Part shown: positions 2,298 to 28,783 of the stretch, piece by piece
Layout: the number at the start of each line of letters is the position of its first letter
Position numbering within the stretch: the stretch's first letter is position 1
NCBI GenBank assembly: GCA_000972765.1
Contig: CP011265.1
Coordinates: 2,279,501-2,343,500 of the forward strand
DNA from: Verrucomicrobia bacterium IMCC26134
GTDB lineage: Bacteria; Verrucomicrobiota; Verrucomicrobiia; Opitutales; Opitutaceae
DNA length: 64,000 nucleotides
Reading direction: 5' to 3'
Program-made: the position numbers and the translations under genes
The notes under the pieces: model-generated
Told to the model about the DNA's origin: nothing
Databases searched by the model: none
What the model saw: only the letters and a program-made list of their open reading frames with translations

Positions 2298-4727
2298 ATG
2301 ACTTTCCGCGACCCCCTGCTCGCCGTCCTCCGCACCCCGGGCTACCGCCCCGTCAACGACGCGGCTCTTTTCCGCCAGCTCGACCTCCCCAAAAAACTTC
2401 GCCCGCGCTTCCTTCACGAGATCCGTCTCCTGCTCTCGCGCGGCGAGATCACCCTTGTCCACGGCGATAAATACGCCCTCCCCGAGGTGAAATTCACCGC
2501 ATCCAACCACGGCATCGTCACCGGCCGCATCCAATTCCGTCAGGGCGGCTCCGCCTTTATCGTCCCCCAGGCCGCACCCGACGCCGCCCCTGACGCCCCA
2601 CGCCCCGACTCCATCCAGATCGCCCCGGGCGACGCCTTGAACGCCCTCCCCGGCGACACCGTCGAGGTCCGCATCGACACCCGTCTGCGCAGCCACCGCC
2701 GCGACCGCGACGACGAGCCCCGCGGCCGCGTCGAACGCATCGTCGAGCGCGCCCGCGCCGAACTCGTCGGCCGCCTCGCTCAGGTCCGCACCCAGTTTGT
2801 CGTCGTCGCCGACGATCCCCGCTACCCCATCGACGTCCAGGTCGAGGACCCCGCCAAGTCCGGCCTCAAACCCACTCCCGCCCCCAACGACAAGGTCGTC
2901 GTCCGCCTCGATCCGTGGGACGACCCCCGCCGCCCCCTCACCGGCAAAATCATCGAGCGCCTGGGCAAAACCTTCGAGCCCCGCGCCGAGCTCCTCGGCG
3001 TCTACCGCAAGTTCAAGCTCGACCCCACCTTCCCCCCCGCCGTCGAACGCGAGGTCGCCGGGCTGGCCGACACCGTGCAGCCGGACCAGCTCACCGGACG
3101 CCTCGATTACCGCGATTTGCCCGTCTTCACCATCGACCCCGATGACGCCAAGGACTTCGACGACGCCCTCTCCATCGAGCACGCCCCCGGCGGCGGCATC
3201 CGCATCGGCGTGCACATCGCCGACGTCTCCGCCTACGTGCGCGCCGGCACCGCCCTCGACATCGAGGCCCAGCGCCGCGGCAACTCCACCTACCTCGTCG
3301 GCACCGTCGTGCCCATGCTGCCGGAAAAGCTCTCCAACGGCCTCTGCTCCCTCGTCGAGGCCCAGGACCGCCTCTGCAAGGCCGCCTTCCTCACCTTCGA
3401 TGCCAAGGGCCGTATCCAGGATAAACTCACCACCTACGCCGACACCGTCATCCGCAGCCGCAAGCGCCTCACCTACAAACAGGCCTACGCCCTGCTCAAG
3501 GAGGACGACCTCGCCAAAATCCGCGCCCTCCCGCTCCCGCCCAAGCACCAGACCGGCTCCACCGGACGCGCCCTCGCTTCCCTTTCGGAAAGCGAACTCA
3601 CCGATCTGCAAACCTGGATACGCCAGCTCTGGGACCTCGCCTCCCGCCTCCGCCAAGATCGCATGGCCCACGGCTCGCTCGACCTCGACATGCCCGAGAC
3701 CAAGGTCTTCGTCGACGCCGAGGGCTACGCCGACCGCCTCGAAAAAATCGAACACGACGAGAGCCACCAGCTCATCGAGGAGTTCATGCTCGCCGCCAAC
3801 GAGGCCGTCGCCCGCCTCACCCGTCGCGAAAAACTTCCTTCCATCTACCGCGTCCACGACGACGCCGACCCCGAAAAACTCAACGAGCTCCGCCAGCAGC
3901 TCGTCACCCACAACATCCGCGTCGGCGACCTCTCCGACCGCAAGGAGTTGATCAAGCTCCTCGCCCTCCTCGCCGACCACCCGCAAGGCTACACCCTCCG
4001 CACCCAGCTCCTGCGCAGCCTCAAAAAAGCCTGCTACCGCGCCAGTCCCGACGGCCATTTCGGCCTGCATAAAAACGACTACACCCACTTCACCTCGCCC
4101 ATCCGCCGCTACAGCGACCTCGTCGTCCACCGCGTGCTCGCCGCCTACTTCGCCCGCCAAAGCGAGCACCCCCACTCCGTCACCGAGGCCGCCGGTCCGG
4201 CCAAATCCCACCCCGCCGGCAAAGCCGCCCAGTCCGCCTCCGCCACCAAGGGCAGACTGCCCTACACCGCCTCCCAGGCCAACGCGATGGGCGAGCACCT
4301 CAGCCTCACCGAAATCAACTCCGCCGAGGCCGAGCGCGAGAGCGTCAAAATCAAGCTGCTCGAATTCTTCGAGCGTGAACTGAACAAGAAAACCCCGACC
4401 AAGTTCGGCGCCGTCATCACCGATATCCGGCAGAACGGCTTCTTTATCGAGCTCACCGAGTCCATGACTTTCGGCTTCGTCCCCGCCGCCGAATTGCGCG
4501 ACGACTACTACATGGCCTCGCCCGACGGCTCCGCGCTGGTCGGACGCAAGACCAAGCGCAAATTCACCGCCGGCGGCCACATCGAGGTCTTTGTCGCCAA
4601 GGTGGACCGCCTCAAACGCTTCATGGACTTCCGCCCCGCCGATCTCGCCCCCGCCCGCGCCAAAGCCGAAACCCCTCCCGCTTCCATCCCGCGCCACGCC
4701 CACCGCAAAGGTGTCACCAAATCGTAA
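2298..4727 (+). CDS. rnr: Ribonuclease R (RNB-family 3'-5' exoribonuclease)
   Basis: A processive 3'-5' exoribonuclease that degrades structured RNA. The order is an N-terminal winged-helix region, cold-shock/OB segments (about 75-240), the RNB catalytic domain with IDPDDAKDFDDA near residues 278-289 and SPIRRYSDLVVHR near 600, and an S1 domain beginning near 700. Start at the ATG at 2298 gives MTFRDPLLAVL and 809 residues, the usual size; an upstream start would add a tail without homology. A low-complexity Ala/Ser/Pro/Lys linker of about 50 residues (nt 4150-4300) lies between the RNB domain and S1 and is not typical. The glycosyltransferase follows after 48 bp. Confidence 0.93.
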   Translation: MTFRDPLLAVLRTPGYRPVNDAALFRQLDLPKKLRPRFLHEIRLLLSRGEITLVHGDKYALPEVKFTASNHGIVTGRIQFRQGGSAFIVPQAAPDAAPDAPRPDSIQIAPGDALNALPGDTVEVRIDTRLRSHRRDRDDEPRGRVERIVERARAELVGRLAQVRTQFVVVADDPRYPIDVQVEDPAKSGLKPTPAPNDKVVVRLDPWDDPRRPLTGKIIERLGKTFEPRAELLGVYRKFKLDPTFPPAVEREVAGLADTVQPDQLTGRLDYRDLPVFTIDPDDAKDFDDALSIEHAPGGGIRIGVHIADVSAYVRAGTALDIEAQRRGNSTYLVGTVVPMLPEKLSNGLCSLVEAQDRLCKAAFLTFDAKGRIQDKLTTYADTVIRSRKRLTYKQAYALLKEDDLAKIRALPLPPKHQTGSTGRALASLSESELTDLQTWIRQLWDLASRLRQDRMAHGSLDLDMPETKVFVDAEGYADRLEKIEHDESHQLIEEFMLAANEAVARLTRREKLPSIYRVHDDADPEKLNELRQQLVTHNIRVGDLSDRKELIKLLALLADHPQGYTLRTQLLRSLKKACYRASPDGHFGLHKNDYTHFTSPIRRYSDLVVHRVLAAYFARQSEHPHSVTEAAGPAKSHPAGKAAQSASATKGRLPYTASQANAMGEHLSLTEINSAEAERESVKIKLLEFFERELNKKTPTKFGAVITDIRQNGFFIELTESMTFGFVPAAELRDDYYMASPDGSALVGRKTKRKFTAGGHIEVFVAKVDRLKRFMDFRPADLAPARAKAETPPASIPRHAHRKGVTKS

Positions 4728-4775: not shown

Positions 4776-6053
4776 ATGCGCGTAGTTCTCACTTCCCACG
4801 GTTCCACCGGCGACATCTATCCGGTCATCGCCCTCGGCGTCGCTTTGCAAAAAGCCGGTCACTCGGTGCGCTTCGCCACCATCCCGAACTACAAGCCCGA
4901 TATCGAGGCCGCCGGCCTGGTCTTCTACCCGCTCTGCCCGAATTGGGAACAGGCCGACCTCGTTTACTGGATGGGCCGCCTCAACAAGATCCGCAGCCCC
5001 ATCTACCAGCTCCGCGAGATCTACGTCGGCGCCCGGGCCTACATCCCCGAGATGATCGCCCAGATGGACGCCATCATGCCCGAGACCGACCTGCTCGTCT
5101 CCAGCTACCTTTTCCCGATGAACAAGGGCATCGCCGACCGCCACGGCGTGCCCTTCGCCACCCTCGCCTTCGCGCCCCATGTCGTCCCCTCCCCGGATTA
5201 CCCGCCCGAGAACATCCCCTCCCCCGCCTGGCTCGGCCGCGCCACCCGCCGCGCCTGGAATCGCTGGCTCTGGAAAACCGGCAACGCCATCGTTGACCGC
5301 GTCATCAACACCTCCATCGCCGACGCCCTGCGCGCCGCGAAACTCCCCAAAGTCCGCAACTTTTTTTCCCGCCCGGCCGAGCGCGTGCTCGTCACCGTGT
5401 CGGATAAACTCTTCCGCCCGCCGCACACCGAGATCGATGCGCGTTTCCGCTTCACCGGCTACTTCCGCTGGCAATCCGCCGAGAGCCCCACACTCGACGC
5501 CGAGCTGCGCGAGTTCACCGCCGACGTCCCCGGCGGCAAGGTTCCCGTGCTGACCTTCGGCAGCATGGTCTACGAGCAACCCGGCGTGTGGATGGAGCGC
5601 TTCATCCGCTCCTGGCCGCGCGACCGCAAAATCATCGTCCAGCGCGGCTGGGCCCAGTTCCCCCAGTTTGGCGACGCGCCCAATATCCGCATCATCGGCA
5701 AGGTCTCGCACGACCAGCTCTTCAAACACGCCTCCGCCATCATCCACCACGGCGGCGCCGGCACCACCGCCAGCGCGCTCCACGCCGGCGTGCCCCAGAT
5801 CGTCGTGCCTCACATCGGCGACCAGGAGTTTTTCGGCTCCGAGGTCGAGCGCTTCGGCTGCGGCTTCCGGCTCAAAAAAGCAGTCTGGCCCGAGCAGCTC
5901 CACCACGCGCTCGATCGCCTTTCCGCCGCACCAGACCACGCCCGCCGCGCCACCGAGGTCAGCACCCAACTCCTCGCCGAGAACGGCCCCGCCGCCGCCA
6001 TCCGCGAACTGGAAGCCTTCGTGACGGAGTCCCGCGCCTCCGCCAGCGCCTAG
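4776..6053 (+). CDS. UGT/MGT-like glycosyltransferase (GT1/GT28 type)
   Basis: A GT-B fold sugar transferase. The N-terminal MRVVLTSHGSTGDIYPVIA (residues 1-19) is the acceptor-domain signature of the UDP-glucosyl/rhamnosyl/macrolide transferase group. The donor-binding signature IIHHGGAGTTASALHAGVPQ begins near residue 322, followed by HIGDQEFFGSEVERFGCG. Its 425 residues fit. There is no signal peptide, so it acts in the cytoplasm or at the inner membrane. Bacterial relatives glycosylate lipids, carotenoids or natural products; nothing nearby names the acceptor. Possibly co-transcribed with rnr. Confidence 0.87.
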   Translation: MRVVLTSHGSTGDIYPVIALGVALQKAGHSVRFATIPNYKPDIEAAGLVFYPLCPNWEQADLVYWMGRLNKIRSPIYQLREIYVGARAYIPEMIAQMDAIMPETDLLVSSYLFPMNKGIADRHGVPFATLAFAPHVVPSPDYPPENIPSPAWLGRATRRAWNRWLWKTGNAIVDRVINTSIADALRAAKLPKVRNFFSRPAERVLVTVSDKLFRPPHTEIDARFRFTGYFRWQSAESPTLDAELREFTADVPGGKVPVLTFGSMVYEQPGVWMERFIRSWPRDRKIIVQRGWAQFPQFGDAPNIRIIGKVSHDQLFKHASAIIHHGGAGTTASALHAGVPQIVVPHIGDQEFFGSEVERFGCGFRLKKAVWPEQLHHALDRLSAAPDHARRATEVSTQLLAENGPAAAIRELEAFVTESRASASA

Positions 6054-6120
6054 TTTCCCCGCCTGGAACGCGCGCAGTCGCCGCTTGCCCGAAGGTTCGT
6101 TTCCGCGGCAAAGTCCTCCG

Positions 6121-6555
6121 ATGCCGACCGACCTCACTCTTCGCCCGCCACGCAGCCCCCGCGCAACCCTCGGCGGCTACGTGCAACTCCCCCGGATCCT
6201 AGACAAAGCCCGCGCCTGCATCGCGGGCCGTCTGGGCGACTACGATTTTCCCGCCCCGCTCGATGGGCATTTCTACACGTTCACCGGCCTCACCAGCGAA
6301 GCCTTGCTGGAGTTCGTCCGCACCGGAGCCGACGACGCGGAGGTGCTGGCGTGGCTGGAGAGCCGCGTCACGCGCGCCCCTTTTGAGATCGCCGCCTGGT
6401 CGGCCACCCTCACGCGCCATGCCCCCGGCGATGCCGAGATGCATGCCTGGTTCGCCGGGGCGCTCGCCCGTCTCGCGCCCGGCCGCACCGATATCGTCAC
6501 CTATTTCGATCTGCTTGATCTGGACGACTACGTGAGCTTCGGCGGCCGCGCCTGA
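6121..6555 (+). CDS. DUF5069 domain-containing protein
   Basis: A small soluble protein of 144 residues that I recognise as DUF5069, a family frequent in Verrucomicrobiota and Planctomycetota with no established function. Visible signatures are LTLRPPRSPRATLGGYVQLP at the N-terminus, the DGHFYTFTG segment, and the acidic end FDLLDLDDYVSF. I start at the ATG at 6121; a TTG at 6085 would add a tail outside the domain. The stop is 20 bp from the convergent GH39 gene. Confidence 0.85.
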   Translation: MPTDLTLRPPRSPRATLGGYVQLPRILDKARACIAGRLGDYDFPAPLDGHFYTFTGLTSEALLEFVRTGADDAEVLAWLESRVTRAPFEIAAWSATLTRHAPGDAEMHAWFAGALARLAPGRTDIVTYFDLLDLDDYVSFGGRA

Positions 6556-18258: not shown

Positions 18259-18996
18259 CCCGGCGATGCGTTCCACCGGGTCGCCCCAAACGCCGCCCGC
18301 CTGGCAAATCGCGTCCAAGCACTCTCCACCTGCATCGCAAGGCCTCCCACCGGACTGCGAGGCGAGACCCAGCAGCCTGCACCGTGTTATTTCAGGGTTG
18401 GACACAGAGCCGACCCAGCGCGCCGCCCCCCCCCCACCCCCTTGGACTGGTCAGCGCCCCACCCCTCTACGCACTGCCGCCCTTACGCCTGCGCAGTTTG
18501 AACTGGAAGTGTAGCCGCGAAAGATCGCAGAGAGCGCAAAGACAGACCGACGGAAATGGCTTTCCTAGCGTTTTCACGATCTTTTGCGGCAAAAAAATCC
18601 TTCGGCTTTTTCTCTCTTAATCGAGGATACACTCCCGGTTAAAAACCGCGCGAAGAACTTCGTTCAGTTCCCTCGGTTAACCGTGCTCAGGCGGCCCGAA
18701 TCGAAACCGCTCTCGCTGTATAAAAAGCCCGGCGGCGTAGCCCGTTTCGATCCTGCTTTTTCGCAAAAATATTACTGGCAAAGGCTGACCATAAAACAAG
18801 CCCGCCCGCCGCCCATCGCCGCCCATTTAGCCGATCCCTATAGTAATAATTATGAATAATTTATCGTAATGAGACGCAAATTATTTTTGAAAAGATAAAA
18901 TTCTGCCCCCAGGTCGCGCCCCCGCGCCTCGGGGCTCCGGTTCACTAGGCGTCTGTCCGCCCCCCCCTCTCCAGCCACCCTTTCCAACACACTAAA
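18259..18996. other. 738-bp non-coding region before the giant gene
   Basis: No gene is convincing here. Seen inside: a GACCCGG/CCGGGTC hairpin at 18257-18282 just after lipA, without a T-run; a run of ten C at 18426-18435; one copy of the CTTTGCG repeat on the minus strand (18513-18541); an AT-rich patch at about 18836-18895 that likely carries the giant gene's promoter; and a run of eight C at 18960-18967, about 30 bp before the start. A 91-codon frame at 18584-18859 has no recognisable product. Confidence 0.6.
18513..18541 (-). repeat. Dispersed CTTTGCG-type intergenic motif, copy C
   Basis: Read on the minus strand it begins CTTTGCGCTCTCTGCG and ends TCTTTCGCGGCT. It matches the plus-strand copy at 28784-28812 at 26 of 29 positions. 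Confidence 0.6.
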
Positions 18997-21900
18997 ATGA
19001 TGACCTCCCTCCGCCGCCTCTTCACCTTGGTCGCCATTCTGGCCGCGGGGTTCATGCCTCACTTCATCCCGTCCGCGCAGGCGGCCGAAATCCAGGTCCT
19101 CAGCAATAACCTCGAGGTTGTCGATGGGGATAGCACTCCCCGCGTTGAAGACCGCACCTTCTTTGGCGTGCAGACGGTCGGTGCGGGAAACCTCACCCAG
19201 ACCTTTACGATCAAAAACCTCAGCACCACCGCCGGAGACAACCTCAACCTCACCGGCACTCCCATTGTCGTCATCGGTGGGGCCAATCCGGGAGACTTCG
19301 TGGTGACCACGCAACCGGTGGCCTCGGTGGCGCCGGGCGCATCCACCACCTTCGTGATCACCTGGACGCCGACCTTTGGCGGCATCCACAACGCGACCCT
19401 CTCGATCGCCAATAACGACAGCAACGAGACCCCCTACGACTTCGCCATCCAGACCACGGCCATGCTCAAGCTCACCTACACCGCAGGCGCCAACGGCTCG
19501 ATCTCCGGCACCACGCCCCAGGTGGTTTTTTCTACCGCCACGGGTTCGGCGGTGACGGCCGTGCCAGCCACCGGCTACCACTTCGTGAACTGGAGCGACG
19601 GATCCAGCGTCAACCCACGCACCGACACACCCGTGACGGCCAACGTGAGCGTTACCGCCAACTTCGCCACCGGTGGCTACACCCTCACCTACACGGCGGG
19701 CGCCAACGGTTCGATCACCGGGACCACGCCGCAGACCGTCATTCACGGCGCCAGTGGCACCGCGGTCAACGCCGTCCCGGCCACCGGCTACTCTTTTGAG
19801 AACTGGAGCGACGGCTCCACCGCCAATCCCCGCACCGACACCAACGTGATGACGAATAAGAACGTCACCGCCAACTTCGCCATCAACACCTACACCCTGA
19901 CCTACACCGCAGGCGCCAACGGCTCGATCTCCGGCACCACGCCCCAGACGGTCAACTACAACACCAGCGGCACCGCCGTCACCGCCGTCGCGGCCACCGG
20001 CTACCACTTCGTGAACTGGAGCGACGCCTCCACCGCCAACCCCCGCACCGACACCAACGTCATCGCCAACAAGAGCGTGAGCGCGACCTTCGCGATCAAC
20101 ACCTACACCCTCACTTACATCGCCGGCCCCTACGGAGTGATCGCCGGCACCACGCCGCAGACCGTCACCCACGGCTCCAGCGGCACCACCGTCACCGCCG
20201 TCCCGGCGGCCAACGCCCGCTTCGTGAACTGGAGCGACGGAGCGCTGACGGCGACGCGCACCGACACCAACGTGACCGCCGCCAAGAGCGTCACCGCCCA
20301 ATTCGAACTGAAAGCGCCGACGACGCCAGTGCCCACCGTCACCTTGAACGGGCCGGCGACAGTCACCATCGGCCTCAACACCGCCTACAGCGAGTTGGGT
20401 GCTTTCTCCGGGCCCAGTGCTCTTGCCGCGGGCGATTCTCACAGCCTGGCGCTACGCAGCGATGGCACGGTTGCCGCGTGGGGTAACAATGGTGACGGCC
20501 AGACGACCATCACCCCCGGTTTGAGCAACGTGGTCGCCCTTGCCTCGGGCTATTATCATAATCTGGCGCTGCGCAGTAACGGCACGGTCGCCGCGTGGGG
20601 ACGGAATTTCGACGGCCAGACGACCCTCCCCGCCAGCTTGAGCAACGTGGTGGCCATTTCCGCGGGCCTTTATCACAATCTGGCGCTGCGCAGTAGCGGG
20701 ACGGTCGTGGCGTGGGGATCCGATTACCTTGGCCAGACGACCATCCCCCCCGGCTTGAACAACGTGGTGGCCATTGCCGCGGGCGGAGCTCACAGTTTGG
20801 CGCTGCGCTACGACGGGGCGGTCTCCGCGTGGGGATACGGTGGCTCTGGCCAGACGACCATCCCCCTCGGGTTGAGTAATGTGATCGCCATTGCCGCTGG
20901 CGGAGGGCACAGTCTGGCGCTGCGCTACGACGGGACGGTCGCCGCGTGGGGATACGGTGCCTCTGGCCAGACGACCACCCCCGCCGGGTTGATCAACGTG
21001 GTCGCCATTGCCGCTGGCGGGTCTCACAGTCTGGCGCTGCGGAGCGACGGCACAGTCGTTGCTTGGGGTGACAATAGCTCTGGCCAGAGCACTATCCCCG
21101 AGGGGTTGAGCAACGTGGTCGCCATTGCCGCTGGCGGGAATCACAGTCTGGCGCTGCGGAGCGACGGCACGGTCGTCGCGTGGGGAGCCGGGCTTATCAA
21201 TGATGGGGGCGTAAGTTCCCCATCCAATAATTATGGCCAATCCATCATTCCCGCCGGAGTCTTTCTGCCTGCCACGGTCAGCGGCAGCGTGAATGCCAAC
21301 ACAGCCGGCAGCTACGTGCTGGCTTACAGCGCCACCAATTTCCTCGGAGGGAGCGGCAGCACCACCCGCACCGTAATGGTGGGGCCCACACTGACCTACA
21401 CCGCCGGCGCCAACGGTTCGCTCACCGGCACCACGCCGCAGACCGTCAACTACAACGCCAGCGGCACCGCCGTCACCGCCGTCCCGGCCACCGGCTACTC
21501 TTTCGTAAACTGGAGCGACGGCTCCACCGCCAACCCCCGCACTGACACCAACGTGACGAGCAACCGCAGCGTCACCGCGACCTTCGCGATCAACACCTTC
21601 ACCCTCACTTACACGGCGGGCGCCAACGGCACGCTCACCGGCACCACGCCGCAGACGGTCAACTACGGCGCCAGCGGCACCGCCGTCACCGCCGTCGCCG
21701 CCCCCGGCTACCACTTCGTGAACTGGAGCGACGGCACCACCGGCAACCCGCGCACCGACACCAACGTGATGACGAATGTGAACGTGACCGCGAACTTCGG
21801 CTTGGATGCGCCCCTGCCGAACGTCACCTTAAACGGGCAGGCTTCGGTGACCATGAGGGTCAACAGCGCCTACACCGAGTCGGGCGCCTTCTCCGGGCCC

Positions 21901-24900
21901 AGTGCCATATCCGGCGCCTCGAGACACAGTCTGGCGCTGCGCAGCGACGGCACGGTCGCCGCATGGGGATTCAATTACTATGGCCCGACGACCATCCCCG
22001 CCGGCTTGAGCAACGTGGTGGCCGTTTCCGCGGGCGATGAATACAGTCTGGCGCTGCGCAGCAACGGGACGGTTGTCGGGTGGGGATACAATGGCAATGG
22101 CCAGTCGGCCATCCCTGCCGGGTTGAGCAACGTGACCGCCATTGCCGCTGGCGGGAATCACAGTCTGGCGCTGCGCAGCGACGGCACGGTCGTCGCGTGG
22201 GGTAGCAATTACTATGACGAAACGACCCTCCCCGCCGGGCTGGGCAACGTGGTGGCCATTTCCGCGGGCTATAACCACAGTCTGGCGCTGCGCAGCGACG
22301 GCACAGTCGTCGCGTGGGGAAGCAATTACTATGGCCAGAGCACCATCCCCGAGGGGTTGAGCAACGTGGTGGCTATTGCCGCGGGCTGGTGGCACAGTCT
22401 GGCGCTGCGCAGCGACGGCACAGTCGTCGCGTGGGGAGCTGGGCTCTACAATGATGGAGGTGCAAGTTACCCATACTATAACTATGGGCAATCCATCATC
22501 CCCGCCGGCTTGAGCAACGTGGTGGCCATTGCCGCGGACGGGTATCACAGTCTGGCGCTGCGCAGCGACGGGACTGTCGCCGCGTGGGGAAGCAATAGAT
22601 ATGGCCAGAGCACCATCCCCGCCGGGCTGAACAACGTGGTGGCCCTTGCCGCGGGCGGGGATTATAGTCTGGCGCTGCGCAGCGACGGGTCGGTCGTAGC
22701 GTGGGGAGACAATTACTATGGCCAGACGACCATTCCCGCGAATATCTATCTGCCCGCCACCGTCAGCGGCAGCGTGGATACCAGCACGCCCGGCAACTAC
22801 GTGCTGACCTACAATGCCACCAATTTCATGGGTGGCACCGGTAGCACCACCCGCACGGTGGTGGTGCTGGCGTCCTATACCCTGACCTACGCGGCGGGCG
22901 CCCATGGCTCGCTCACCGGCTCGCCGCTGCAGACGGTTGACTACAACGCCAACGGCACCGCCGTCGCCGTCGTCCCAGCTCTCGGCTACTCTTTCGTCAA
23001 CTGGAGCGATGGATCCACCGCCAACCCCCGCACCGACACCAACGTCACGGCCAACAAGAGCGTCACCGCGAACTTCGCGATCAATACCTACGCTTTGACC
23101 TACACCGCAGGCGCTAACGGCTCGCTCACCGGCACCACCCCGCAAACGGTCAACTACGGCGCCAGCGGCACCGCCGTCGCCGCCGTCCCAGCTCTCGGCT
23201 ACTCTTTCGTCAACTGGAGTGACGGCTCCAGCGCCAACCCCCGCACCGACGGCAACGTGACGACCAACAAGAGCGTCACCGCCAACTTCGCGATCAATAC
23301 CTACGCTTTGACCTACACCGCAGGTGCCAACGGCTCGCTCACCGGCACCACCCCGCAAACGGTCAACTACGGCGCCAGCGGCACCGCCGTCGCCGCCGTC
23401 CCAGCTCTCGGCTACTCTTTCGTCAACTGGAGTGACGGCTCCAGCGCCAACCCCCGCACCGACGGCAACGTGACGACCAACCTGGGCGTCACCGCCAACT
23501 TCGCGATCAACACCTACGCTTTGGCCTATACTGCCGGCGCCAACGGTTCTCTCACCGGCACCACCCCGCAGACAGTCAACTACGGATCCAACGGCTCCGC
23601 GGTCACCGCCGTCCCCGCCACCGGCTATTCTTTCGTCAACTGGAGCGACAGCTCTACCGCTAACCCCCGCACCGACACCAGCGTGACGGCCAACCGCAGC
23701 GTCACCGCGAACTTCGCCATCAACACCTACACCCTGACCTACGGGGCAGGCGCCAACGGCTCGCTCGCCGGCACCACGCCGCAGACCGTTGATCACGGCG
23801 CCAGCGGCTCCGCCGTCACCGCCGTCCCGGTGGCCAACTACCACTTCGTGAACTGGAGCGACGGCGTGCTGACGGCGGCGCGCACTGATGGCAACGTCAC
23901 GGCCAACCAGAGCGTCACCGCCACCTTCGCCATCGACACCTTTACCCTGTCCTACACTGCAGACGCCAACGGCTCGCTCACTGGCACCGCTTCCCAGACG
24001 GTGACCTACGGCTCCAGCGGCACCACCATCACCGCCGTGCCAGCTCCCGGCTACCGCTTCGTTAACTGGAGCGACGGCTCCACCGCCAACCCGCGCACCG
24101 ACACCAACGTGACGGGCGACCTGAGCGCGACTGCCAACTACGAAATCGGTGGTTACACCCTGACCTACACCTCAGGCGCCAACGGTTCTCTCACCGGCAC
24201 CACGCCGCAGACGGTCAACTACAACGCCAGCGGCACCGCCGTCGCCGCAGTAGCGAATGCCGGCTACCACTTCGTGGGCTGGAGTGACGGCTCCACCGCC
24301 AACCCCCGCACCGACGGCAACGTGACGACCAGCCTGAGCGTCACCGCCAACTTCGAAAGCGGTGGCTACACCCTCACCTACACTGCTGGAGCAGGCGGCA
24401 CCCTCACCGGCACCACGCTGCAGACCGTTGACCATGGCACAAATGGCACCGCCGTCACCGCCGTCGCCGCCCCCGGCTACCACTTCGCGAACTGGAGCGA
24501 CAGTTCCACTGCCAACCCGCGCACCGATACCAACGTGACGGCCAGCCAGAGCGTTAGCGCAAACTTCGTCCCGAATACGCCGACGCCGCCACTGCCCACG
24601 GTCACGTTGAACGGGTCGGCGACGGTCACCATTCAGCTCAACGCCGCCTACACCGAATTGGGCGCGTTCTTCGGGCCCAGTGCCCTTGCCGCGGGCGCGT
24701 CTCACAGTCTGGCGGTGCGGAGCGACGGCACGGTCGTCGCTTGGGGTGACAATCGCTCTGGCCAGGGCACCACCCCCCCCGGGTTGAGCAACGTGGTGGC
24801 CACTGTCGCGGGTGTAGCACACAGTCTGGCGCTGCGCGGCGACGGGTCGGTCGTCGCGTGGGGATCCAATGACTATGGCCAGACGAGTATCCCCGCCGGG

Positions 24901-27900
24901 CTGGACAACGTCGTGGCCATTTCCGCGGGCATTTATCACAATCTGGCACTGCGCAGCAACGGCACGGTCGTCGCCTGGGGATACAATTACGATGGCCAGA
25001 CGGCCATACCCGCGGGCTTGAGCAACGTGGTGGCCATTGCCGCGGGCGGGTATCACAGTCTGGCGCTGCGGAGCGACGGCACGGTCGTCGCCTGGGGATA
25101 CAATGACTCCTGGGGCCAGACGGACATACCCGCCGGGTTGAGTGACGTGGTGGCCATTGCCGCGGGCGGGTATCACAGTCTGGCGCTGCGCAGCGACGGC
25201 ACGGTCGTCGCTTGGGGAAACGATAACCTTGGCCAGAGCACCGTTCCCGCCGGGTTGAGCAACGTGATGGCCATTGCCGCGGGCGGGTTTCACAGTCTGG
25301 CGCTGCGCAGCGACGGCACGGTCGCCGCGTGGGGAAAATATAACTACAACGGTAACGGTTCAGACTTTATACCCATGTATGTTCCCGACGAGTTGAGCAA
25401 CGTGGTGGCCATTGCCGCGGGCGGGGGTCACAGTCTGGCGCTGCGCAGCGACGGGACCGTCGCCGCCTGGGCATACAATGGCGATGGCCAGACGACCGTC
25501 CCCTCGAATGTCTATCTTCCTGCCACCGTCAGCGGCAGCGTGGATCCCAGCACGCCTGGCAGCTACGTGCTGACCTACAGTGCCACCAATTTCCTCGGAG
25601 GCAGCAGCAGCACCACTCGCACCGTGGTGGTGCTGGCTCCCTTAAATCTCACTTACACGGCGGGCGCCCACGGCTCGATCACCGGCACCACGTCGCAGAC
25701 GATCAGCAACAGCACTACCGCCAGGGGCACCGCCGTCACCGCTGTGCCAGATCCCGGCTACCACTTCGTAAGCTGGAGCGACGGCTCTACCGCCAACCCA
25801 CGCACTGACACAGGCCTGGTCGCAGATGTGACCGTGACCGCCAATTTCGCCATCGGTGGTAATACCCTCACCTACACCGCCGGAGCCAACGGTGCGATCA
25901 CCGGCGCCACGCCGCAGACGGTAAACCACGGCTCAGCTGGCACCACCGTCACCGCCGTGCCTGCCACCGGCTACAGCTTCGTGAACTGGAGCGATGGCTC
26001 TCCCATCAATCCACGCACCGACACCAACGTGATGATGAATGTGAACGTCACCGCGAGTTTCCGGCTCGATATACCCGGCAATCTCGATCCGGACTTTTAT
26101 CCCGATGCGAACGGCACCGTCTATAGCTCAGCGGTGCAGCCGGATGGCAAGGTGCTGATCGGGGGTTTGTTTACCACCGTGCTCGGAGTGGAGCGCAACC
26201 GCATCGCCCGACTTAATGCCGACGGCACGCTGGACATGGACTTCAATCCCAATGCGAGCGGCAGCGTCTTTAGCCTGGCGGTGCAGGCGGATGGCAAAGT
26301 GCTGATCGGTGGCGCCTTCACCACCCTCCAGCCCAACGGCGCGGCCTCGCCCACTACGCGCAACCGCTTCGCCCGGCTCAATGCCGACGGCTCTCTCGAC
26401 ATGGGCTTCGATCCCAATGCGAGCGGCAGCGTCTTTAGCGTGGCGGTGCAGGCGGATGGCAAGGTGCTGATCGGTGGCGCCTTCTTACGGCTGCAGCCCA
26501 ACGGCGCGGCCACCGCCACCGCCCGCTTGCGCTTCGCCCGGCTCAATGCCGACGGCACGCTCGACGAGGGCTTCAATCCCAGACCAAACGGTTCCGGCAC
26601 TAGCACCACAGTCACTAGCGTGGCAGTGCAGGCGGATGGCAAGGTGCTGATCGGTGGAAACTTCCGCACGCTCCAGCCCAACGACGCGGCCACCGCCACC
26701 CCGCGTCAATACATCGCCCGGCTTAATGCCGACGGCACGCTGGACCCGGACTTCAATCCCAATGCGAACAACTCCGTCCAGAGCGTGGCAGTGCAGGCGG
26801 ACGGCAAGGTGCTGATCGGGGGCGGCTTCTCCACGCTCCAGCCCAACGGCGCGGCCACCGCCACCCCGCGCAACCGCATCGCCCGGCTCAATGCCGACGG
26901 CTCTCTCGACATGGGCTTCGATCCCAATGCGAACGGCAGCGTCCTTAGCCTGGCGGTGCAGGCGGATGGCAAGGTGCTGCTCGGCGGCACTTTCGGCGCG
27001 CTCCAGCCCAACGGCGCGGCCACCGCCACCCCGCGCAACCGCATTGCCCGGCTCAATGCCGACGGCACGCTCGACGAGGGCTTCGGTCCCAAGGCGAACG
27101 GCAACGTCTCTAGCCTGGCCTTGCAGGCGGATGGCAAGGTGCTCATCGGGGGCGAATTCACCACGCTCCAGCCCAACGGCGCGGCCACCGCCACCACGCG
27201 CAACCGCATCGCCCGGCTGGACAACGACGCTGCCACGCAGAACCTCTCCATCCCCGACGGCACCCAGGCACTCTGGAGCCGCGGCGGGTCGGCACCGGAA
27301 CTCACCCGCGTGACCTTTGAGGTGAGCACCGACGGCGGCGCCACCTGGGGCACGCCCATCGCAGGCACTCGCCTCGGCACCACGGCCAACTGGCAGGCCA
27401 CCGGCCTTTCCCTGCCCGCCGGAAGCCTGCTCCGCGCCCGCGGCGTGACATCTGGCGGCTATTTAAACAGCAGCTCCGGGCTGATCGAGCAGGTGACCAG
27501 CTTCTCCACCCTGACCTACACCGCAGGCGCCAATGGCACCCTCACCGGCACCACTCCGCAGTGGGTGGCCTCCGGTGCCAACGGCACCGCCGTCACCGCC
27601 GTGCCAGCCTCCGGCTACCACTTCGTCAACTGGAGCGACGGCTCCACCGCTAATCCGCGCACCGACACCAACGTGACGGCCAACAAGAGCGTGACGGCCA
27701 ACTTCCTGGTCGATGCCCCGGTGGTAGATGTCCTCTCGCCGAGCACCGGCCTGACCACCGGCGGCACCAGTGTGACGCTCCGCGGCATCAACTTCCTCGG
27801 CACAAGCTCGGTCACCTTCGGCGGCACCGCCGCGACCATCGTCTCCGTCACGGGCACCGAGATCACCGTGACCAGCCCCGCCCATGCCGCCGTTGCGGTC

Positions 27901-28602
27901 AATGTGGTGGTCACGACGCCTGGCGGCAGTTCCACCGACGTGGCGACCTTCACCTACACCGCCCCGCCTACCCCTGTGGTAGATGTCCTCTCGCCGAGCA
28001 CCGGCCTGACCACCGGCGGCACCAGTGTGACGCTCAGCGGCATCAACTTCCTCGGCACCAGCTCGGTCACCTTCGGCGGCACCGCCGCGACCATCGTCTC
28101 CGTCACGGGCACCGAGATCACCGTGACCAGCCCCGCCCATGCCGCCGGTGCGGTCAATGTGGTGGTCACGACGCCGGGAGGCAGTTCCACCGACGTGGTG
28201 ACCTTCACCTACGAAGCCGCCCCGCTCTCCGCCCTCGAGAGCTGGCGCCAAACCAAGTTTGGCAACACCGCCACCAACACCGGCACCGCTGCCGACGCGG
28301 CGGACCCCTACCACACCGGCGTCCCGAACCTGCTGGTCTATGCCTTCTTCGGCCCGGCCCAGGATCCGGCCACGGTGCAGAGCAGCCAGCTGCCCCAGGC
28401 CACCGCCAGCGGGAATTTCCTGAGCTACGAGTTCACCGAGCCAAGCGGAGTCAGCGGCCTCACCTACGGCGCCGAGTGGAGCGCGACGCTCGGCAACGAT
28501 TGGCAGCCCGTGACCGACACCGGCATCGCTCCCGTGCACACCTTCCGCGTGCCCCTGGACGGACCCAAGAAGTTCCTGCGCCTGCGCGTCACCACGCAGT
28601 AA
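18997..28602 (+). CDS. Giant secreted repeat protein (InlB B-repeats, RCC1-like and delta-60 propellers, IPT/TIG)
   Basis: A 3,201-residue exported protein. A signal peptide (MMTSLRRLFTLVAILAAGF... to about residue 30) precedes a HYDIN/choice-of-anchor-D-like Ig domain (about 31-155). Then come 17 divergent InlB B-repeats of about 71 residues in five groups. Three arrays of seven RCC1-like 39-residue repeats (residues about 476-756, 971-1251, 1897-2173) are each flanked by the two halves of a DUF5011-type Ig domain. Seven delta-60 repeats (about 2361-2748) follow, then two nearly identical IPT/TIG domains (about 2909-3074) and a C-terminal module with ESWRQTKFGNTATNTG. No LPXTG, PEP-CTERM or membrane anchor is visible. 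Such repeats usually serve adhesion or surface structure; function here is unknown. No ribosome binding site precedes the ATG. Confidence 0.85.
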   Translation: MMTSLRRLFTLVAILAAGFMPHFIPSAQAAEIQVLSNNLEVVDGDSTPRVEDRTFFGVQTVGAGNLTQTFTIKNLSTTAGDNLNLTGTPIVVIGGANPGDFVVTTQPVASVAPGASTTFVITWTPTFGGIHNATLSIANNDSNETPYDFAIQTTAMLKLTYTAGANGSISGTTPQVVFSTATGSAVTAVPATGYHFVNWSDGSSVNPRTDTPVTANVSVTANFATGGYTLTYTAGANGSITGTTPQTVIHGASGTAVNAVPATGYSFENWSDGSTANPRTDTNVMTNKNVTANFAINTYTLTYTAGANGSISGTTPQTVNYNTSGTAVTAVAATGYHFVNWSDASTANPRTDTNVIANKSVSATFAINTYTLTYIAGPYGVIAGTTPQTVTHGSSGTTVTAVPAANARFVNWSDGALTATRTDTNVTAAKSVTAQFELKAPTTPVPTVTLNGPATVTIGLNTAYSELGAFSGPSALAAGDSHSLALRSDGTVAAWGNNGDGQTTITPGLSNVVALASGYYHNLALRSNGTVAAWGRNFDGQTTLPASLSNVVAISAGLYHNLALRSSGTVVAWGSDYLGQTTIPPGLNNVVAIAAGGAHSLALRYDGAVSAWGYGGSGQTTIPLGLSNVIAIAAGGGHSLALRYDGTVAAWGYGASGQTTTPAGLINVVAIAAGGSHSLALRSDGTVVAWGDNSSGQSTIPEGLSNVVAIAAGGNHSLALRSDGTVVAWGAGLINDGGVSSPSNNYGQSIIPAGVFLPATVSGSVNANTAGSYVLAYSATNFLGGSGSTTRTVMVGPTLTYTAGANGSLTGTTPQTVNYNASGTAVTAVPATGYSFVNWSDGSTANPRTDTNVTSNRSVTATFAINTFTLTYTAGANGTLTGTTPQTVNYGASGTAVTAVAAPGYHFVNWSDGTTGNPRTDTNVMTNVNVTANFGLDAPLPNVTLNGQASVTMRVNSAYTESGAFSGPSAISGASRHSLALRSDGTVAAWGFNYYGPTTIPAGLSNVVAVSAGDEYSLALRSNGTVVGWGYNGNGQSAIPAGLSNVTAIAAGGNHSLALRSDGTVVAWGSNYYDETTLPAGLGNVVAISAGYNHSLALRSDGTVVAWGSNYYGQSTIPEGLSNVVAIAAGWWHSLALRSDGTVVAWGAGLYNDGGASYPYYNYGQSIIPAGLSNVVAIAADGYHSLALRSDGTVAAWGSNRYGQSTIPAGLNNVVALAAGGDYSLALRSDGSVVAWGDNYYGQTTIPANIYLPATVSGSVDTSTPGNYVLTYNATNFMGGTGSTTRTVVVLASYTLTYAAGAHGSLTGSPLQTVDYNANGTAVAVVPALGYSFVNWSDGSTANPRTDTNVTANKSVTANFAINTYALTYTAGANGSLTGTTPQTVNYGASGTAVAAVPALGYSFVNWSDGSSANPRTDGNVTTNKSVTANFAINTYALTYTAGANGSLTGTTPQTVNYGASGTAVAAVPALGYSFVNWSDGSSANPRTDGNVTTNLGVTANFAINTYALAYTAGANGSLTGTTPQTVNYGSNGSAVTAVPATGYSFVNWSDSSTANPRTDTSVTANRSVTANFAINTYTLTYGAGANGSLAGTTPQTVDHGASGSAVTAVPVANYHFVNWSDGVLTAARTDGNVTANQSVTATFAIDTFTLSYTADANGSLTGTASQTVTYGSSGTTITAVPAPGYRFVNWSDGSTANPRTDTNVTGDLSATANYEIGGYTLTYTSGANGSLTGTTPQTVNYNASGTAVAAVANAGYHFVGWSDGSTANPRTDGNVTTSLSVTANFESGGYTLTYTAGAGGTLTGTTLQTVDHGTNGTAVTAVAAPGYHFANWSDSSTANPRTDTNVTASQSVSANFVPNTPTPPLPTVTLNGSATVTIQLNAAYTELGAFFGPSALAAGASHSLAVRSDGTVVAWGDNRSGQGTTPPGLSNVVATVAGVAHSLALRGDGSVVAWGSNDYGQTSIPAGLDNVVAISAGIYHNLALRSNGTVVAWGYNYDGQTAIPAGLSNVVAIAAGGYHSLALRSDGTVVAWGYNDSWGQTDIPAGLSDVVAIAAGGYHSLALRSDGTVVAWGNDNLGQSTVPAGLSNVMAIAAGGFHSLALRSDGTVAAWGKYNYNGNGSDFIPMYVPDELSNVVAIAAGGGHSLALRSDGTVAAWAYNGDGQTTVPSNVYLPATVSGSVDPSTPGSYVLTYSATNFLGGSSSTTRTVVVLAPLNLTYTAGAHGSITGTTSQTISNSTTARGTAVTAVPDPGYHFVSWSDGSTANPRTDTGLVADVTVTANFAIGGNTLTYTAGANGAITGATPQTVNHGSAGTTVTAVPATGYSFVNWSDGSPINPRTDTNVMMNVNVTASFRLDIPGNLDPDFYPDANGTVYSSAVQPDGKVLIGGLFTTVLGVERNRIARLNADGTLDMDFNPNASGSVFSLAVQADGKVLIGGAFTTLQPNGAASPTTRNRFARLNADGSLDMGFDPNASGSVFSVAVQADGKVLIGGAFLRLQPNGAATATARLRFARLNADGTLDEGFNPRPNGSGTSTTVTSVAVQADGKVLIGGNFRTLQPNDAATATPRQYIARLNADGTLDPDFNPNANNSVQSVAVQADGKVLIGGGFSTLQPNGAATATPRNRIARLNADGSLDMGFDPNANGSVLSLAVQADGKVLLGGTFGALQPNGAATATPRNRIARLNADGTLDEGFGPKANGNVSSLALQADGKVLIGGEFTTLQPNGAATATTRNRIARLDNDAATQNLSIPDGTQALWSRGGSAPELTRVTFEVSTDGGATWGTPIAGTRLGTTANWQATGLSLPAGSLLRARGVTSGGYLNSSSGLIEQVTSFSTLTYTAGANGTLTGTTPQWVASGANGTAVTAVPASGYHFVNWSDGSTANPRTDTNVTANKSVTANFLVDAPVVDVLSPSTGLTTGGTSVTLRGINFLGTSSVTFGGTAATIVSVTGTEITVTSPAHAAVAVNVVVTTPGGSSTDVATFTYTAPPTPVVDVLSPSTGLTTGGTSVTLSGINFLGTSSVTFGGTAATIVSVTGTEITVTSPAHAAGAVNVVVTTPGGSSTDVVTFTYEAAPLSALESWRQTKFGNTATNTGTAADAADPYHTGVPNLLVYAFFGPAQDPATVQSSQLPQATASGNFLSYEFTEPSGVSGLTYGAEWSATLGNDWQPVTDTGIAPVHTFRVPLDGPKKFLRLRVTTQ
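19471..20310 (+). repeat. InlB B-repeat group A (4 copies)
   Basis: Four tandem units of about 71 residues, each with the pattern LTYTAGANGS...TTPQTV...FVNWSDGS...NPRTDTNV. The fourth is the most diverged (LTYIAGPYGVIAG). Confidence 0.8.
20422..21264 (+). repeat. RCC1-like array 1 (7 units)
   Basis: Seven units of about 39 residues with the core HSLALRSDGTVVAWG and GLSNVVAIAAGG. The last unit carries a short insertion (AGLINDGGVSSPSNNYGQ). The array is preceded by TVTLNGPATVTIGLNTAYSE and followed by ATVSGSVNANTAGSYVLAYS, the two halves of one DUF5011-like domain. Confidence 0.85.
21388..21810 (+). repeat. InlB B-repeat group B (2 copies)
   Basis: Two tandem units between RCC1-like arrays 1 and 2, the second ending VTANFGLDAP directly before the next split Ig domain. 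Confidence 0.8.
21907..22749 (+). repeat. RCC1-like array 2 (7 units)
   Basis: Seven units of about 39 residues, the fifth with an insertion (GLYNDGGASYPYYNYGQ). Flanking halves are NVTLNGQASVTMRVNSAYTE and ATVSGSVDTSTPGNYVLTYN. Confidence 0.85.
22879..24573 (+). repeat. InlB B-repeat group C (8 copies)
   Basis: The longest tandem group, eight units. Units two and three (23089-23301 and 23302-23514) are almost identical at DNA level, indicating a recent 213-bp duplication. Confidence 0.85.
23089..23514 (+). repeat. 213-bp near-identical tandem duplication
   Basis: Two adjacent in-frame 213-bp copies (71 codons each) differ at only about six positions, for example in a codon pair changing KS to LG near the end. 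Other neighbouring units differ much more. Confidence 0.8.
24685..25515 (+). repeat. RCC1-like array 3 (7 units)
   Basis: Seven units; the sixth has an insertion (KYNYNGNGSDFIPMYVPDE). Flanks are TVTLNGSATVTIQLNAAYTE and ATVSGSVDPSTPGSYVLTYS. Confidence 0.85.
25645..26070 (+). repeat. InlB B-repeat group D (2 copies)
   Basis: Two tandem units between the third RCC1-like array and the delta-60 block; the first has an extra SNSTTAR insertion. Confidence 0.75.
26077..27240 (+). repeat. Delta-60 repeat block (7 units)
   Basis: Seven units of about 55 residues with VAVQADGKVLIGG, a TTLQPNGAATAT loop and RNRIARLNADGTLD. The core matches the delta-60 repeat of secreted bacterial proteins. Seven units would close one beta-propeller. 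Confidence 0.85.
27508..27717 (+). repeat. InlB B-repeat group E (1 copy)
   Basis: A single unit (LTYTAGANGTLTGTTPQWV...) between the delta-60 block and the IPT/TIG pair. Confidence 0.75.
27721..28218 (+). repeat. Tandem IPT/TIG domain duplication
   Basis: Two copies, 255 bp apart, begin VVDVLSPSTGLTTGGTSVTL and continue through SSVTFGGTAATIVSVTGTEI. They differ at only a handful of bases, for example RGIN versus SGIN and AAVAV versus AAGAV. The fold family is IPT/TIG. Confidence 0.85.
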
Positions 28603-28649
28603 ATCCCTCCACGTCGAGCACGCCTCCGGCGACCCTGCGAGAGTTCCCC

Positions 28650-28681
28650 AGCCCGCCTCCTCCAAAGGGGCGGGCTTTTTC
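28650..28681 (+). terminator. Rho-independent terminator of the giant gene
   Basis: AGCCCGCC (28650-28657) pairs with GGCGGGCT (28669-28676) across an 11-nt loop and is followed by a T-run. It lies 48 bp past the giant gene's stop. Confidence 0.85.
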
Positions 28682-28783
28682 ATGCCCTCGGCGAATAGGT
28701 GGGGCGTGACCGCTGGGCGCGCCGATTCGGTGGCGATTTTCCAGGTCACGAACGCGGCGGGCCCCTGCCACAAGGCGGTAGTT

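Follow-up and report, generated by a model that had tools for sequence, protein, structure and literature searches.

Predicted propellers within a giant repeat protein

The DNA analysed here (the window) is a stretch of 64,000 nucleotides (nt) from Verrucomicrobia bacterium IMCC26134 (contig CP011265.1, positions 2,279,501 to 2,343,500), and contains an open reading frame (ORF) for a repeat protein of 3201 amino acids (aa). Pfam analysis of this protein revealed 21 RCC1_2 stretches, 17 Flg_new_2 B-repeats, seven DUF5122 stretches, two TIG stretches and three matches to PF16403 (Bact_surface_Ig-like), a family of immunoglobulin (Ig)-like domains; the RCC1_2 stretches together score 605 bits against a curated cut-off of 22. 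Analysis of the RCC1_2 stretches showed three arrays, each lying between an N-terminal and a C-terminal part of a PF16403 domain (Table 1). An earlier note on this DNA, made from the letters alone, had described three RCC1-like blocks flanked by Ig-like halves, and all three are found where it placed them, within one ORF. The whole modules (20332–21381, 21814–22866 and 24592–25632) share the order N-part (29 or 30 aa), seven-blade array (276–280 aa) and C-part (41 aa).

Table 1. Features of the 3201-aa repeat protein, in window coordinates.
Feature	Position	Strand	Basis
ORF, 3201-aa repeat protein	18997..28602	+	ORF list, Pfam
B-repeats (Flg_new_2, divergent InlB B-repeat) ahead of module 1, period 213 nt	19471..20305	+	Pfam, repeats
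Module 1, N-terminal part of PF16403 Ig-like domain	20332..20418	+	HMM of joined/separate halves
Module 1, seven RCC1_2 blades, blade 7 with insertion	20419..21258	+	HMM blade count
Module 1, C-terminal part of PF16403	21259..21381	+	Pfam
B-repeats between modules 1 and 2	21397..21799	+	Pfam, repeats
Module 2, N-terminal part of PF16403	21814..21903	+	HMM
Module 2, seven RCC1_2 blades, blade 5 with insertion	21904..22743	+	HMM, AF2 model
Module 2, C-terminal part of PF16403	22744..22866	+	Pfam
Eight B-repeats between modules 2 and 3	22874..24568	+	Pfam, repeats
Module 3, N-terminal part of PF16403	24592..24681	+	HMM
Module 3, seven RCC1_2 blades, blade 6 with insertion	24682..25509	+	HMM
Module 3, C-terminal part of PF16403	25510..25632	+	Pfam
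DUF5122-type tandem array (seven DUF5122 stretches in protein)	26193..27218	+	Pfam, repeats
C-terminal domain of the 3201-aa protein	28222..28599	+	genome self-match search

The flanks were compared with PF16403, of which we take DUF5011 to be the earlier name. Taken alone, the three C-parts match profile positions 36–71 with 35.8–42.3 bits, and two of the three N-parts match positions 2–22 with 12.6 and 13.1 bits, the third being unreported. When the halves are joined, all three domains match the profile at full length (positions 2–71) with 43.2, 51.0 and 49.3 bits, above the cut-off of 27 bits, which bears out the earlier proposal that the halves read jointly as one DUF5011-like domain. Both parts match the family in order, as in other PF16403 domains, with the difference that the array interrupts the profile at positions ~23–35 and inserts ~275–280 residues. 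With a genome-specific Ig hidden Markov model (HMM), built solely from the other 13 PF16403 matches of the genome, nine modules of this genome gave an N-part at positions 1–22/23 and a C-part at 34/35–71 (34–59 in one), and alignment revealed that the halves are collinear with the 13 intact domains. The array therefore appears, at the level of sequence, to replace the ~23–35 loop of an Ig-like domain, in agreement with the earlier note.

The genome contains 22 PF16403 matches, of which 12 are full-length, one starts at position 6 and nine begin only at positions 29 to 36; a seven-blade array immediately precedes each of these nine short matches. This association of half-domain and array is far beyond chance. 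The comparison covered 130 arrays from the window protein, six further regions of the genome and 78 loci (L numbers; some overlap) obtained by a contig search of the best 80 of 552 relatives. Both halves occur in order in 13 of the 130, and four more show a single half: contig ends cut off L034 and the second L033 array, and in both L035 arrays the N-part has diverged. A 20-bit line on the joined score would by itself leave 115 arrays as not nested; L034 and the second L035 array were reclassed as modules, giving 113 arrays without the pattern. The N-side scores 5.4–20.5 bits in the 13 complete cases and 16.4 bits in L034, and no array of the 113 exceeds 7.1 bits.

HMM counts gave seven blades in each array of the window (21 in all), exactly as the earlier note had stated. 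Its unit length of 39 residues applies to 15 of the 21 blades. One blade has 40 residues, insertions of 7 to 12 residues occur in three, and each array ends in a blade that is truncated at the start of the C-half. Seven blades were found in all 16 complete arrays, comprising nine modules of this genome (three in the window and six in three paralogues with open frames of 2757, 2555 and 1760 aa) and seven in other genomes (two each in L031 and L035, one each in L032, L033 and L151). This set includes L035 despite its diverged N-part and leaves out the contig-cut L034 and second L033 arrays; a regular expression, in place of the HMM, undercounts the blades of the paralogues (16, 11 and 12 in all).

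Ring geometry, variable columns and blade copying

An AlphaFold2 (AF2) model of module 2, based on nine aligned sequences, has a mean predicted local distance difference test (pLDDT) score of 74.8 and a predicted template modelling (pTM) score of 0.75, with pLDDT 80–93 for most blade blocks and three strands in each of the seven blades. A Foldseek search with this model returned BLIP-II as top hit (E 1e-25). VIA-align 2 superimposed model residues 24–315 on UVR8 (Z 34.6, root mean square deviation (rmsd) 2.3, 280 residues aligned) and 25–290 on BLIP-II (Z 32.9, rmsd 1.9, 244 residues, 46% identity). In the model of this one module the RCC1_2 array is a closed ring of seven three-stranded blades, like UVR8 and BLIP-II, and the closure at seven blades predicted in the earlier note is thus reproduced. 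The likeness to BLIP-II (structures 1jtd and 3qhy) extends to the blade length of ~39 residues and the profile match (E 3e-58). A further model, for an array nested in He_PIG and based on two sequences, reached pLDDT 39.9 and was set aside.

The rings differ from BLIP-II in where they are cut. BLIP-II residues 5–258 align to profile positions 46–298, which means that BLIP-II begins in the third strand of a blade. In 15 of the 130 arrays the joined score exceeds 20 bits (two of them have a C-part only); 14 of these begin and end at blade borders, at most six positions off, and the other is contig-cut. Where the PF16403 pattern is lacking (113 arrays), 78 arrays begin inside a blade and 35, including contig-cut arrays and double rings, do not. 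Split-blade closure, a trait of BLIP-II rather than of the fold, is absent from the complete PF16403-nested arrays: BLIP-II is free-standing and starts within a blade, whereas in the rings of the window the cut falls between blades and the ring sits in a host domain. As the array is opened between blades and not within one, the Ig-like domain may take over ring closure from the usual within-blade velcro. Nesting and cut are not always coupled, since He_PIG-nested arrays at L061 are cut inside a blade.

Alignment of 63 blades revealed that columns 6, 7, 23, 25 and 26 are the most variable (entropy 2.66–3.07 bits, the next column having 1.86), and these candidate contact columns differ between blades. 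They were compared with the 22 BLIP-II residues listed as contacts with β-lactamase in PMC10817188. The 'Tyr19' of that list was read as Tyr191, and Ile229 and Asn304 were left out of the look-up, in which HMM columns are numbered one lower than the blade-entropy columns. Of the 20 contact residues looked up, 17 fall in the five variable columns; Asn50 maps to column 24, Thr57 to column 30 and Asn51 to an insertion. The coincidence has a binomial p of 5e-13 if residues of repeated blades are treated as independent.

Mean identity over the nine modules of the genome is 0.74 for the N-part, 0.75 for the C-part and 0.72 for the array. N- and C-parts are correlated across modules (Mantel r 0.52, p 0.014), with r 0.37 (p 0.075) for N-part against array and r −0.05 (p 0.57) for C-part against array. 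Blade identity is 0.714 for equivalent positions of different modules, 0.699 for different positions and 0.704 within a module. Eighteen identical DNA tracts of at least 45 nt were found: 11 within modules (189 blade pairs), three between modules at the same position (252 pairs) and four at different positions (1512 pairs). Blade 7 of module 1 and blade 5 of module 2 carry a similar insertion. Together, the correlation of the halves and the pattern of blade identities and tracts indicate that the halves behave as one domain, while the blades are copied among themselves and their number stays at seven. The earlier suggestion that the pattern was copied as a module is therefore upheld only for the two halves, which track each other; the C-half and the array do not, and blades are hardly more alike at equivalent positions than at others. 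In Pereira and Lupas (2022, PMC9218822), highly repetitive β-propellers are described as having closely similar blades and signs of recent blade copying. The arrays of the window resemble these in their near-alike, recently copied blades, but differ in that complete modules always have seven and that the blades are copied inside a host loop. A search of the main text of PMC9218822 gave no match for 'insert' or 'Ig-like'.

A displayed binding head and its alternatives

We consider it fairly probable that the window protein is an exported multi-head fibre in which split Ig-like domains display BLIP-II-type binding heads, the anatomy being read from sequence and the ring from the model. In the proposed mechanism, a complete BLIP-II-type propeller would replace the loop at ~23–35, which probably lies between strands B and C. 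The chain would lay down the first Ig strands, then the propeller, and then return to complete the Ig fold, which could also stand in for the within-blade velcro as ring closure. The split Ig would stay in the line of B-repeats and hold both ends of the propeller, so that the head would stick out to the side, its free face pointing away. A diversified binding face would be formed by the five hypervariable columns of each blade, which lie where BLIP-II grips β-lactamase, and the complete protein would be a fibre, exported and bearing several such heads. The folded Ig, the export or surface location and the binding of ligands by the predicted heads are all putative parts of this scheme.

The closest known counterpart is found in repeats-in-toxin (RTX) adhesins, in which a split Ig-like domain projects a ligand-binding domain from the fibre, as described in PMC12077191 and PMC10865825. 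The guests described there are a carbohydrate- or sugar-binding module, PA14, a peptide-binding domain or an RTX roll, and the vWFA domain of these adhesins emerges from the RTX roll and not from an Ig domain. As in those adhesins, the sequence of the window protein places a guest inside an Ig-like host of a long repeat protein, with both guest ends leaving on one side. Unlike what is described there, PF16403 serves as host to a seven-bladed propeller amid B-repeats, one protein contains three modules and the organism is a verrucomicrobial bacterium. The likeness would be one of working, and RTX membership is not claimed; a type I secretion signal, RTX nonapeptides and an N-terminal retention domain are absent from the 14 Pfam families of the protein, a scan in which the secretion route was not searched for. 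A search of titles and abstract openings found no propeller in a split Ig, and no work joining 'split domain', propeller and adhesin, in a corpus outside which most subscription papers lie.

Several observations weigh against the display of binding heads by split Ig-like domains. The N-halves are weak when scored alone, and that of L032, with 5.4 bits, falls within a background that reaches 7.1, so that one true N-half is inside the background. At L035 the genome Ig HMM detects the C-half only, and the joined Pfam match is 41.2 bits over positions 7–71 in one array and 27.9 bits over just 29–71 in the other. Solved Ig structures are matched by the C-halves (relatives are found in chitinase 60, BT_2262 and bacillolysin) and by no N-half. 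In the AF2 model the Ig halves have pLDDT ~28–55, with residues 1–27, 313–320 and 332–345 below 50, and owing to this low confidence a sandwich formed from the two halves rests on sequence. Variability also peaks in the same five columns across 714 blades from non-nested arrays, which makes the variable face a trait of the propeller family and not of nesting. Finally, the ratio of nonsynonymous to synonymous differences (pN/pS) is 1.08 in the five columns and 0.45 elsewhere, and the former value is as compatible with relaxed constraint as with selection for diversity.

This neutral-like ratio and the shared variability of non-nested relatives are what would be expected if the split Ig and the propeller were real but the propeller served as a rigid spacer or bulky cap, its variable positions drifting unconstrained. 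We regard such a role as unlikely, because the variable columns coincide with the contact face of BLIP-II, the remainder of the blade is constrained, and the guest of known split-domain adhesins is the ligand-binding part (PMC12077191). It is more doubtful still that the flanks are not one domain but a truncated Ig on the C-side and an unrelated strand or linker on the N-side, with the propeller merely in series. That arrangement could explain why both flanks are modelled with low confidence and why N-halves alone fall below the Pfam reporting or curated cut-off; however, the two parts occupy complementary profile ranges in all nine modules of the genome, score higher joined than either does alone, recur in the same order in other genomes (L031, L032, L033, L151) and co-vary. 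Lastly, arrays without the within-blade cut of BLIP-II may need another closing device, but that the N- or C-half lends a strand to complete a blade as molecular velcro, with no separate Ig, is very improbable given that every blade of the model draws three strands from its own repeat and that the joined flanks keep the PF16403 signature.

If display by split Ig-like domains is correct, the split-domain rule for ligand-binding heads in giant adhesins would cover a guest and a host family that are new to it, and probably also a new group of bacteria, and unnamed giant proteins could then be searched for heads by sequence alone. The hypervariable columns predict residues for binding tests and point to a natural scaffold on which binders could be designed. 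The nine modules in four paralogous proteins, with recent blade copying yet always seven blades, also offer a test case for how blade number is kept.

Distribution, other hosts and the remainder of the protein

Outside this genome, the PF16403 arrangement was found at L031–L035 among the best 80 of 552 contig matches. A junction profile, consisting of the last blade and the C-half, matched 66 of 200 family genomes at E 1e-6, the whole junction being covered, among the matches listed, only in the genome of the window; partial matches in G146 and G026 proved on reading not to be a split Ig. Among 387 genomes of the phylum, two matched at E 1e-13: the genome of the window, with nine junctions and two blade-only matches, and G343, with one junction. 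The arrangement is thus rare, occurring in the genome of the window and one other of these 387.

Seven arrays without the PF16403 pattern were picked by eye and their flanks tested with Pfam for other hosts. At L036, an array of 14 blades (L036:2819–4771) is flanked by Big_5 matches of 26.9 bits (positions 5–45) and 24.0 bits (61–105), which join to 51.1 bits over 5–105; the contig is titled Candidatus Nanosynbacter and may be misbinned. At L061, two arrays (2935–4023 and 5233–6324) have flanks that join to He_PIG matches of 45.6 bits (9–95) and 44.7 bits (4–95), the shared C-part alone giving 36.1 bits (44–95) and the N-parts alone being unreported. Nesting in Big_5 and, twice, in He_PIG is therefore well supported by profile matches. 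MBG is a weak candidate host for the MBG-like flanks of L150 (14 blades) and L038 (arrays of seven and at least six blades): joining gave 34.5 bits against 34.0 alone for MBG_3 in the second L038 array, 15.4 (16.9 in another cut) against 18.8 in the first, and 17.4 or 20.2, depending on the cut, against 16.8 in L150, below the cut-off. A B-repeat host at L068 is unsupported, as the joined matches (24.7 and 13.1 bits) start at profile position 7, inside the C-part, and the N-part adds nothing; in the second array the C-part alone gave 13.4 bits. At L074 (Pontiella sulfatireligans), arrays lie between stretches rich in DxDxDG-type calcium-repeat motifs.

A broader hypothesis, which we hold tentatively and at somewhat less than even credence, is that BLIP-II-type propellers are a travelling bacterial binding cassette, inserted independently into several unrelated Ig-like hosts (PF16403, Big_5, He_PIG and perhaps MBG) as complete rings, namely one or two of seven blades. 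The host would fix the number of blades at seven, with exchange and homogenisation of blades going on within it, and five columns per blade would give a large repertoire of binding faces, which, if true, would be comparable in principle to that of leucine-rich-repeat receptors.

The N-terminus of the 3201-aa protein resembles a signal peptide when judged by eye, and the protein is probably exported. Its DUF5122 array probably forms a fourth propeller of seven blades, this one without a host domain; the paralogue at L018 likewise has seven DUF5122 stretches in Pfam. The last 126 residues match at 28 places in the genome (27 besides the query itself), within ORFs that range from 485 to 3217 aa, and could be a sorting or anchor signal. 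Five copies, 87–100% identical to the query, belong to the four module proteins and to the L156 protein, which is very similar to the window protein in its N-terminus and B-repeats but has no RCC1 blades. Taken together, these sequences suggest an exported scaffold whose heads are exchangeable. Repeats resembling tail-collar domains by eye occur in the B-repeat protein at L156:1351–6093, and Pfam finds phage tail-collar-type domains in the L019 paralogue. On the minus strand, long repetitive ORFs lie opposite the repeat gene (18850–28773) and are taken as by-products of its repeats and composition.

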